From: Puniceicoccus vermicola
GTDB taxonomy: Bacteria > Verrucomicrobiota > Verrucomicrobiia > Opitutales > Puniceicoccaceae
Direction: 5' to 3'
DNA: 45,983 bases
Assembly: GCF_014230055.1 (NCBI RefSeq)
Contig: NZ_JACHVA010000016.1
Span: 1-45,983 of the forward strand
Shown here in pieces: positions 17,927 to 21,316 of this stretch (its first letter is position 1; every line of letters starts with the position of its first letter). The notes under the pieces are model-generated. The model worked only from the letters and a program-made list of their open reading frames with translations. It was not told where the DNA came from and did not search any database. The translations under genes and the position numbers were made by a program.

Positions 17927-20900
17927 ATGCGAAATTCCCCTGCTTCCCATTGGCTCGGAATCACTCTCGCGGCTGTATCCAGCCTCGGCGTTCCCAGCCT
18001 CGTTCTCGGACACGGTTCGGTGGGAGACCCGATCAGTCGTCCCTATCGTATCTTCCTCGAGAATCCCGAAAATCCGAAAAGCGAAGTCTCTGCCGCCGCT
18101 ATCGCGACCGCCGGCACCCAGGCATTCTACGATTGGCACGAAGTCAGTCTTCTCGTTCCCAATTACAACGGCAGTGATCTCGCCCCCTATCGGGCCATGA
18201 TTCCCGATGGCACCCTCGCCGGTGCCGGAAGGGATAAATACGCAGGCCTCAACCTCACCCGTAGCGATTGGCCCGCAACTCCCGTCAATGCCGGGACCTA
18301 CCCTGTGGTCTACGACGCTCACGTCCCTCACGATCCGAGCTACTTCCTCGCCTTTCTGACCAAGGAAGGGTGGAGCCCCGACCAACCCCTGAAGTGGGAT
18401 GATCTCGTTCCTCTTGAGGGGCCAGAAAACTACGTCCGCGATGGCAACCTCTACCGCTTCGACGTAGAACTCCCACAGCGCACCGGCCACCACGTCCTCT
18501 ATGTCATCTGGCAACGAATCGATCCCGCTGGCGAAGTATTCTTCTCCGCCAGCGACGTCGACTTTGGAGACGGGACCGGCTACGGAAATCCCGCCGATGG
18601 GAGCGGACGCTACCCCGAGTTTGACCTCGAATTCGGAGACGGTGAACTCAACGCCGACGTTACCTTCGCCGTCCAAAGCGATTGGGGCAGTGGATTCACC
18701 GGACAAGCAACCGTCACCAATACCGGCGACTTTCCCATCAACGACTGGGCTGTGGAATTCACCATTGGACACGAGATCAGCTCCGTCTGGGGCGGCACGA
18801 TCGTCCAGTCCGAAGGCCTCACCTACACCGTTCAGAACGCCGACTGGAATCGAGACATCCCCGTCGGAGAGTCGGTGACATTCGGTTTCAACGCAGAGCC
18901 CGGAGGAATAGATCACCTCCACGCCCACATCGCCTCCATCTCTCTCGGAGGAGAAGTCACACCGACTCCTACTCCCGACCCGGATCCGGACCCCACTCCC
19001 GATCCTGACCCAGACCCAGATCCAACGCCGGATCCTGATCCCGATCCAACGCCGGACCCCGATCCTGACCCGACACCGGACCCTGACCCCGTTGATCAAG
19101 GCGACATCACCATCGACTTCCAGATCGTGGACGACTGGGGAAGTGGATACACCGCAGCCGTAACGTTGACCAACAACGGCACGGCTAACGTCGAAGACTG
19201 GACCCTCTCCTTCGATCTCGGAGTCGATCTAACAAACTTCTGGAACGCCGACGGCGGAACCCGGGCGGGCGACACGCTCACCTTCTCGAACGCTTCCTGG
19301 AACGGCACCATCGCCCCCGGCAACTCCGTGAACTTTGGCTTCCAAGCCAGTAGTAGCGACGACACCACTGCGGAAAACTTCGTTTTCAACGGACAATCCA
19401 GCGAAAACCCGAATCCTGATCCTGACCCAGATCCCACACCCGACCCGGATCCCGATCCAACGCCGGATCCCGATCCGGACCCAACCCCCGATCCAGACCC
19501 GACACCTACCGGCTCTCTTGAGGTCGCCGTCGGCTCTTCCTGGAACAGTGGTTTCAGCGCCGAAGCCAGTTTGATCGCCCCTCAGAACCTGACTGGCTGG
19601 GAAGTCACCTTCGACTTCCCCTATGGAATCGGATCGATCTGGAACGCCGAGATCGTCTCGCAGACCGGAAACACCTACACGGTCCGCAGCAAGAGCTACA
19701 ACGCCGCCGTTCCTGCGGGTGGCACCATCAGCTTTGGCTTCAACGCCGCTTCAGGAGGCCCCTTGGCTGGTGAGACTCTCTATCCACAGAACGTCTCCCT
19801 CAACGGATCCCCTGTCGAAGGTGGCAATAACCCCGATCCTGACCCGGACCCAGACCCAGATCCCACCCTGCCCGATCCGACTCCCGATCCCGAGCCCGCT
19901 GAATACGGAGACGGCAAGCAGCAGACCGGCGACTACAACTACGCCGAGGCGATGCAGAAGAGCCTCTTCTTCTACGACGCCCAGCGTTCCGGAGATCTCC
20001 CTGAAGACTTCCGGGTCAGCTGGCGGGGGGACTCGGCCGTCAACGACGGTTCCGATGTCGGCCTCGATCTCTCCGGTGGATTCTACGATGCCGGCGATCA
20101 CGTCAAGTTTGCCTTGCCCGGCGCTTTCAGCTTCACCCTTCTCGGATGGAGCGCCGCCGATCAGCGCAACTCTTGGATCGAGACCGGACAGCTTGATGAG
20201 CTCCTCGACCTGATCGAGTGGCAAGCCGACTATCTCATGCGCTCTCATATTCAGGACTCCAATGGAGAAACCCTCGAATTCTACGGTCAGGTTGGCAATG
20301 GCTCCATGGACCATTCCTACTGGGGCCCTCCCGAGGGCATGAACATGAACCGCCCCGCCTACAAAGTGAGCCGTTCGCAACCCGGCACCGAAGTCGCCGC
20401 AGAATCGGCTGCCTCTCTCGCCGCCGCCTCCCTGGCCTTCCGTCCAGACGATCCGGCCTACGCCGACGAGCTCCTGGAGCACGCCGCATCACTCTACCGC
20501 TTCGCCGACAACTACCGAGGCACGTATGTCAACGCCATCCCCGACGCCCGTAACTACTACAACTCCCACTCGGGCTACGAAGACGAGCTGGTCTGGGGTG
20601 CGCTCTGGATGTATCGAGCCACCGGGGACACCGCCTATCTCGACAAGGCTGAGGACTACTTCGCGGATTACCTCGAAGGAGGTTTCCAAGGGAGCAGCTC
20701 TGGTGGATTCCGCTGGACCATGAATTGGGATGACAAGAGCTACGGAACCGTCGTTCTCTTGGCTGCCCTTACTGGCGACAGCAAATATCAGGAATACGCC
20801 GAGAAGTGGCTGGACTACTGGAGCGTGGGCTACAATGGCCAACGCGTACAATACTCACCGGGAGGTCAGGCCTACCTCGACCAATGGGGCTCCCTCCGCT

Positions 20901-21316
20901 ACTCGGCCAACACCGCCTTCCTGGCCCTCTGGTATGCCGATCAGGTCGGCGACCACGGCAGTCGCTACTTCGATCTCGGAGAATCCCAGATCGACTACGC
21001 CCTCGGGGACAACCCGCAAGGACGGTCCTATGTGGTCGGCTTCGGCAATAATCCCCCGATCAACCCCCATCACCGCGCTGCTCACGGCTCCACCACCAAC
21101 AACATCGGCGTCCCCTACAACAACCGAAACATCCTCTATGGAGCTCTGGTCGGCGGACCGGGACAAGCCAATGATGGAGCCTCGTATCAGGACGACCGAT
21201 CCGACTATCGAGCCAACGAGGTGGCGCTCGATTATAATGCCGGATACACCGCAGCCCTCGCCCTTCTCTACGAAATCTACGGCGGGCAGGTGCTCGCCAA
21301 TTTTCCAGCCGAGTAA
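17927..21316 (+). CDS. secreted AA10 LPMO-CBM2-CBM2-CBM2-GH9 cellulase fusion
   Basis: A 1129-aa secreted enzyme. Signal peptide 1-28; cleavage after VLG exposes His29, the N-terminal copper ligand of lytic polysaccharide monooxygenases. AA10 domain at about 29-220 with second ligand His135 (in VPHDPSY), [10 protein letters not shown] and [18 protein letters not shown] (axial Phe about 205), closest in pattern to cellulose-active AA10s. Three CBM2-like modules at about 238-344, 391-493 and 529-630, joined by Asp-Pro linkers (346-389, 494-527, 635-658). GH9 domain at about 660-1125 with DAGDHVKF (Asp721, Asp724), the NPHHR signature and general acid Glu1098 in [10 protein letters not shown], so both catalytic halves look intact. 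No cysteine occurs anywhere; the disulfides usual in AA10 and CBM2 are missing. The TAA stop is formed at the junction with a 275-bp MITE-like element. Confidence 0.93.
18961..19095 (+). repeat. Asp-Pro linker 1 (coding repeat)
   Basis: Degenerate short repeats encoding (DPDPDPTP)n between CBM2 modules one and two of the LPMO-GH9 protein. The linker is highly acidic, extended and free of Ser and Cys. Confidence 0.9.
19406..19509 (+). repeat. Asp-Pro linker 2 (coding repeat)
   Basis: About 34 residues of DP/TP repeats between CBM2 modules two and three, of the same make-up as linker 1. Codons for Asp and Pro vary, so the repeat is conserved at the protein level more than in DNA. Confidence 0.9.
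19828..19899 (+). repeat. Asp-Pro linker 3 (coding repeat)
   Basis: About 24 residues of DP-rich linker, with one LPDP break, between the third CBM2 module and the GH9 domain. Confidence 0.85.

Follow-up and report, generated by a model that had tools for sequence, protein, structure and literature searches.

The window analysed here, a stretch of 45,983 nucleotides from contig NZ_JACHVA010000016.1 of Puniceicoccus vermicola, carries on its plus strand an open frame (17927-21316) that runs from ATG to stop without internal stop and encodes a protein of 1129 amino acids (aa), in which Pfam places, behind a predicted signal peptide, a lytic polysaccharide monooxygenase (LPMO) of family AA10, three CBM2 modules and a glycoside hydrolase (GH) of family GH9. 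Judged by these domains, the product is quite probably a secreted bicatalytic enzyme degrading polysaccharides, whichever polymer its AA10 domain cuts. A chain of this composition had been claimed in the preliminary description of the same DNA, and it was borne out both by the profiles and by its conservation in a second species: the orthologue in another genome of the genus (G002) is 77-84% identical, depending on the piece compared, and has the same architecture.

The LPMO_10 profile (PF03067) matches residues 29-211 over its entire model (1-183 of 183; E 1.9e-37; 130 bits at a cut-off of 23), which agrees with the AA10 identity proposed beforehand. CBM_2 (PF00553) matches three stretches (E 1.4e-58) and GH9 (PF00759) residues 672-1111, again from end to end (1-444 of 444; E 9.2e-145; 484 bits); in the NCBIfam scan of the window protein no match reached its curated cut-off. 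The Pfam scores are too high for chance to come into question. With both catalytic domains in one chain the protein falls among bicatalytic LPMO-GH enzymes. The residues named in advance, His29, His135, Asp721, Asp724 and Glu1098, were all found at their places. The two histidines form the His brace of AA10, accompanied by Arg197, Glu203 and Phe205, and as His1 and His107 of the domain they are invariant in 40 of 40 aligned rows. Cleavage before His29 is itself a prediction; in the orthologue (locus L025) a leader of equal length is followed by HGSIGDP. Asp721, Asp724 and Glu1098, which we take to be the catalytic Asp/Asp/Glu of GH9, together with the full-length profile match assign the second catalytic domain to this family, and it aligns with the E4 structure 1js4 across residues 670-1127 (E 3.9e-173). 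No CBM3 was found behind it by Pfam. Three exposed aromatic residues are a feature of type a CBM2, and the triads placed by eye from sequence alone read W/W/W, W/W/W and W/W/Y in the three modules. Cysteine is absent from the whole protein.

We infer secretion, copper activity and coupling of the two catalytic domains, and the following mechanism may be proposed. The three CBM2 modules would keep the protein attached to a crystalline surface. There the AA10 domain at the N-terminus, its copper bound by the His29/His135 brace, would make oxidative chain breaks, and the tethered GH9 endoglucanase could then enter at the loosened chains and hydrolyse cellulose.

AA10 fusions among relatives

Fusion of AA10 to a hydrolase is not a one-off within the class. 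In a sample of 387 genomes of the phylum AA10 was detected in eight (frames of 655-1623 aa) and GH9 of any kind in 126, and a sample of the class (384 genomes) yielded 30 AA10 genes from 27 genomes. Eight of these genes (G551:C118, G393, G636:C187, G521, G538, G584, G498 and G464) run off the end of a contig with no hydrolase seen in the visible part and were set aside. Among the 22 readable ones, the own genome of the window being counted, 20 are fused to a glycoside hydrolase and 11 have GH9: eight contain GH9 without GH18, three contain both, eight contain GH18 without GH9, one (G489, recognised by eye in a frame that contains N and runs off its contig) has a GH5-like domain and two (G191 and G636:C73) show no hydrolase. 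One of the GH18 genes without GH9 (G547) also has GH5 according to Pfam of L049, frame length and domain places being equal. The 11 GH9-fused genes are spread over 7 of the 12 AA10-bearing genera, species within a genus not being independent. Since 20 of the 22 readable genes are fused, the early figure of seven fused genes among 1222 of CBM33, now AA10 (five with GH18, one with GH19 and one with GH5), given in 2012 (PMC3492096), misfits this class.

Among 80 named loci out of 274 relatives, GH9 occurs in 14, four of which also have GH18, and GH18 without GH9 in nine; 14 loci are cut off and 43 have no hydrolase visible to the local scan. Because of these 43, which include Planctomycetota, Actinomycetota and the AA10-CBM2 proteins of Roseibacillus and its kin, the fusion is not a general rule across all relatives. 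Local scans were targeted to AA10, CBM2, GH9 and GH18, and Pfam was run on nine related proteins; GH5 of L049, an alginate-lyase-like domain of L070 and CBM3 behind the GH9 of L071 and L054 became visible only by the latter. A GH5-like domain of L180 was recognised by eye, and L074, labelled as having no hydrolase, holds 344 aa outside its assigned domains. As a contrast, 296 genomes of Actinomycetota, the phylum of G667 (Lentzea, itself included), gave 13 genomes with AA10 and 45 rows, which correspond to 44 genes because two rows of G761 are one gene. One gene of the 44 was seen fused (AA10-GH18), with inspection covering frames of at least 540 aa; three of the four such frames show neither GH9 nor GH18, shorter frames may contain a small hydrolase, and cut-off frames were not sought.

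The window protein belongs to a group of Verrucomicrobiota proteins where AA10 often heads multi-catalytic chains (AA10-CBM2n-GH9, -GH18, -GH18-GH9, -GH9-GH18 and -GH5-GH18). Three arrangements combine AA10 with both a cellulase and a chitinase, namely GH18-GH9 (L060), GH9-GH18 (L047, L171) and GH5-GH18 (L049). The first is found as AA10-CBM2x3-GH18-GH9 in Cerasicoccus frondis, arenae and maritimus (L053, L060 and L061). L047 consists of AA10, two CBM2, Calx-beta, GH9, CBM2 and GH18, and L171, from G627, a genome of the same order assembled as a single contig, of AA10, three CBM2 with interspersed Calx-beta, GH9, a GH18-like barrel and GH18. L049, of 2031 aa, reads AA10-CBM2-GH5-Calx-Ig repeats-CBM2-GH18, and in G191 the parts are split across two genes, AA10-CBM2x3 and CBM2x3-GH18-GH9. 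The 2268-aa chain of L171 (L171:3217-10020) probably has a second GH18-like barrel; the match of its middle barrel to the EndoS-type barrel is weak (27.4 bits, cut-off 27), yet the motif GLDIDLE is present. A further observation concerns the AA10-GH9 protein at L070:6803-10633, where an Alginate_lyase2 domain (1.8e-15) lies between AA10 and CBM2.

On the AA10 tree (83 rows) the labels GH9 and GH18 alternate, each needing five changes, four of them forced by starred branches, and are still clustered, none of 500 shuffles being as low for either label; on the GH9 tree (24 rows) the AA10 label needs four changes, three of them forced. That the GH9 label arose only once in the AA10 tree was rejected because of the five changes needed, with gain and loss indistinguishable. 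In the 17 rows having both modules the two trees agree on the main groups, with G191 as a clear departure and the AA10 of L047 left unplaced; from this agreement the fusions seem for the most part to be inherited whole, apart from occasional exchange, splitting or loss. On the same ground, free shuffling of the two modules was rejected in part as the general pattern, and an exchange of modules in L047 was not upheld, the placement of its AA10 being unsure. In G191 the AA10 domain groups with L171, that is with the window group, and the GH9 domain with Cerasicoccus. Constraining this AA10 with Cerasicoccus gave p 0.023 in the approximately unbiased (AU) test, and forcing the five rows of the window GH9 group as an AA10 clade gave AU p 0.013, the group being chosen in both cases after viewing the trees; the latter value was read as G191 AA10 falling among the window-group rows. 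Since L047 and L171, which belong to the GH9 group of the window (100/100), carry GH18 behind GH9, the window form may have lost a GH18 once located there.

Substrate of the LPMO domain

In the preliminary description the LPMO domain was supposed to oxidise cellulose, and this remained unsupported: most of its closest characterised relatives act on chitin, and the pair His71/His132 fits neither class. As far as can be judged from its residues and fold, the domain may cut cellulose, chitin or both. Several observations weigh against oxidation of cellulose. In the phmmer search the top rows of the AA10 domain, CbpD (157 and 155 bits), ScLPMO10D (155) and Tma12 (151), are of the chitin type, though the next three, CjLPMO10A (91), AsLPMO10B (86; chitin-active) and the cellulose-active ScLPMO10C (80), stand close together. 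The specificity pair His71/His132, next to which Val133 takes the place of Ala in ScLPMO10D and CbpD, differs from the Phe/Trp pair of cellulose-active AA10, and the same His/His stands beside GH18 without GH9 in L046, L083, L093 and L096. Finally, CBM2 can bind chitin besides cellulose (PMC10154629).

ScLPMO10D, CbpD and CjLPMO10A are reported to be chitin-active (PMC10067821, PMC9344471), and Tma12 is counted with them in PMC9344471, its oxidation being not demonstrated according to PMC10067821. Chitin-active ScLPMO10D has Asn76/Thr131, and in ScLPMO10C both Phe82 and Trp141 had to change to gain chitin activity (PMC10067821); the specificity motifs are regarded as provisional (PMC9344471). 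The His/His of the window is polar but also different from the chitin-type pair (Gln or Asn with Thr or Ser). In a residue table of 81 rows Phe occurs at the first position in none and Trp at the second in 10, and position 133 is occupied by Thr (43), Val (25), Ala (12) or Ile (1). The His/His pair was registered in 10 rows, namely three with GH9 only (the window included), four with GH18 only, one with both and two with neither. As a separate observation, Trp at the position of His132, without the partner Phe, belongs to ten AA10-CBM2 proteins of Roseibacillus and its kin (L030, L031, L032, L033, L036, L037, L038, L040, L042 and L044).

The AlphaFold2 model of the AA10 domain (40 rows) has a pLDDT of 96.1, and its first eleven structure rows are all LPMOs or fusolin (Z 24.9-29.4), the nearest solved structure being 7zjb of ScLPMO10D (Z 29.4). 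ScLPMO10D, Tma12, AsLPMO10B and CbpD are at VIA Z 27.7-29.4, and because CjLPMO10A (26.5) and ScLPMO10C (26.1) follow close behind, the fold alone separates substrates weakly.

An LPMO active on chitin would combine chitin oxidation with cellulose hydrolysis, suited to a mixed target or to particles in which both polymers occur, and we consider this a genuine possibility without favouring it. The six best Foldseek rows (ScLPMO10D, two entries of CbpD, CjLPMO10A, Tma12 and AsLPMO10B) are mostly chitin-active, relatives join AA10 to a cellulase and a GH18 chitinase in the three arrangements described above, and the own genome contains GH18 genes as well as a GH94 whose closest match is N,N'-diacetylchitobiose phosphorylase. 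However, the window protein has no chitinase domain, its second shell is His/His rather than the chitin-type pair, the Z of ScLPMO10C is about tied with that of chitin-active CjLPMO10A, and no GH20 was found in the own genome, though it is present in G001 and G002. Placement among chitin- and cellulose-active anchors failed, the AA10 tree putting the window no nearer to one than to the other with two of the anchors, ScLPMO10C and CjLPMO10A, on very long end branches (>2).

Somewhat less probable, and put forward tentatively, is an AA10 domain acting on both polymers, whose lack of discrimination led to the replacement of one partner hydrolase by another. The repeated changes of both labels on the AA10 tree and the occurrence of His/His beside GH9, GH18 and both are in line with it; on the other hand, other surface residues may track the partner, and the labels are clustered on the tree beyond any of the shuffles. 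A joint scheme looks unlikely as a whole. By it AA10 would, in Verrucomicrobiota, usually lead self-contained multi-catalytic enzymes; LPMO, cellulase and chitinase would have been united in one chain in the ancestor of the window group, and the window form, having lost its chitinase, would cut cellulose as well as chitin with its His/His LPMO.

Conservation, surroundings and known systems

The bicatalytic chain lies in a neighbourhood shared with G002: eight blastn pieces outside the linkers (window 10234-30517) are collinear in L025, in which the window genes at 21647-22807 and at about 23.9-27.3 kb find no blastn match. No match to the fusion protein was found in G001 (same genus) and G003 (same family). 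Relative to G002 dN/dS is 0.055 for AA10, 0.164 for CBM2-1, 0.225 for CBM2-3 and 0.036 for GH9, with synonymous sites near saturation; for CBM2-2 and the linkers no value is given because these sites are past saturation there. That the fusion is an artefact of assembly or a decaying gene has a negligible probability, as nothing but the division of the own genome (5.2 Mb, 96% complete) into 143 contigs speaks for it, while a chimera is ruled out by the orthologue in its collinear neighbourhood and by AA10 and GH9 sharing one frame in 14 of the 80 named loci, cultured Cerasicoccus strains included, and decay by the low dN/dS along with the intact frame. The single AA10 match and the single GH9 match of the own genome are both inside this gene. 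One scan of viral contigs with exact peptide patterns gave no relative, and among plasmids 63 records match somewhere, none of them with one place covering >80% of the query.

Table 1. Positions of the parts of the fusion gene and of two upstream genes in the window
Feature	Positions	Strand	Remarks
Signal peptide	17927..18010	+	Predicted cleavage between VLG and H, before His29; read from sequence
AA10 LPMO domain	18011..18574	+	Residues 29-216; Pfam, residue table, AlphaFold2 model, structure search
CBM2 module 1	18656..18931	+	Residues 244-335 (borders set by analyst); W253/W288/W307
Asp/Pro/Thr repeat linker 1	18944..19096	+	Tandem repeats of 18-24 bp
CBM2 module 2	19097..19390	+	Residues 391-488; W404/W439/W458
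Asp/Pro/Thr repeat linker 2	19391..19510	+	Tandem repeats
CBM2 module 3	19511..19822	+	Residues 529-632; W539/W572, Tyr591 as third aromatic
Linker 3	19823..19930	+	Sequence
GH9 domain, T. fusca E4-like	19931..21316	+	Residues 669-1129; Asp721, Asp724, Glu1098
ECF-type sigma factor gene, upstream	16230..16745	+	Pfam Sigma70_r2 4.5e-16; sigma-70 region 2/4
Gene overlapping sigma factor	16742..17554	+	No Pfam match; perhaps anti-sigma factor

The upstream gene of an extracytoplasmic function (ECF) sigma factor is a possible regulator of the fusion gene, and the stretch 16183-16897 of the window is among the collinear matches with L025. Downstream of the fusion gene there are a carbonic anhydrase and two ion-channel genes; no CAZyme family was found beside it in ten scanned window frames, five of which gave no match at all. 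On the minus strand a 396-aa open frame (17909-19099) lies antisense to the LPMO end, most likely a side effect of the base composition together with the repeat linker, and a gene at 5354-8869 encodes a 1171-aa hybrid histidine kinase with PAS, GAF and receiver domains. The carbohydrate genes of the own genome (GH18, chitobiose-phosphorylase-like GH94 and weak GH5 matches) leave the substrate undecided. At L200 (own contig C101, 331500-342000) a GH18 gene occupies two frames because of a frameshift, at about 3000-4060, and adjoins two genes of GH94 type, the nearest match of one being N,N'-diacetylchitobiose phosphorylase 8bou (673 bits) and that of the other putative beta-glycan phosphorylase 4zle. 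At L013 (own contig C134, around 2520-2786) a polysaccharide-deacetylase-like gene and a CBM2-like stretch were seen by eye in two frames, so that this genome seems to have another secreted carbohydrate gene with a frameshift.

The synergy of LPMOs and cellulases is usually studied with separate proteins. Natural fusions of an LPMO with a cellulase are available in the group described here, and cultured Cerasicoccus strains add ones that also contain a chitinase; this natural series allows tests of the value of covalent coupling, of module order and of the substrate rules of AA10.

In the literature searched, CAZy, UniProt, supplements and subscription papers lying outside it, no AA10-GH9 enzyme was found described, and no bacterial enzyme of the order AA10-CBM2x3-GH9, as had been supposed. 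Two genes with a GH domain are given in PMC4144037, and no such fusion was found in the available parts of a paper on planctomycetal AA10 (PMC11131199) and of PMC10018900, PMC8545098, PMC12714770, PMC6920513, PMC13386854, PMC11653725, PMC10269863 and PMC4867992. The pairing of an LPMO with GH9 is in itself not new, since a bioinformatic survey mentions multimodular AA15 members with GH9 or GH18 (PMC8615602), which also have LPMO and GH9 in one chain but belong to another LPMO family. AA10-GH9 is thus a conserved and apparently undescribed variant of the bicatalytic LPMO-hydrolase.

Among solved structures Thermobifida fusca Cel9A/E4 (1js4) is the best match of the window GH9; a point of difference is that the window protein, unlike its relatives L071 and L054, has no CBM3. 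ScLPMO10D (7zjb) and CbpD, the nearest to its AA10 by sequence and among the nearest by fold, have no hydrolase domain, carry an Asn/Thr or Asn/Ser pair instead of His/His (PMC10067821, PMC9344471) and, in the phmmer alignments, possess cysteines, unlike the window protein. The closest counterpart in design comes from Jonesia denitrificans: Jd1381 (JdLPMO10A, AA10-CBM5-GH18), which a 2023 review names as the one bicatalytic LPMO to have been characterised (PMC10154629). Like the window protein it has an N-terminal AA10, a middle CBM and a C-terminal GH, but the hydrolase is a GH18 chitinase and there is one CBM5 in place of three CBM2, and its smaller AA10 (5aa7; 142 residues, Z 15.6) is far from the window model. 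Since full-length Jd1381 outperformed every mix of its separated domains (PMC10154629), covalent coupling, the mechanism proposed in the preliminary description, would by this precedent be sensible for the window protein as well.
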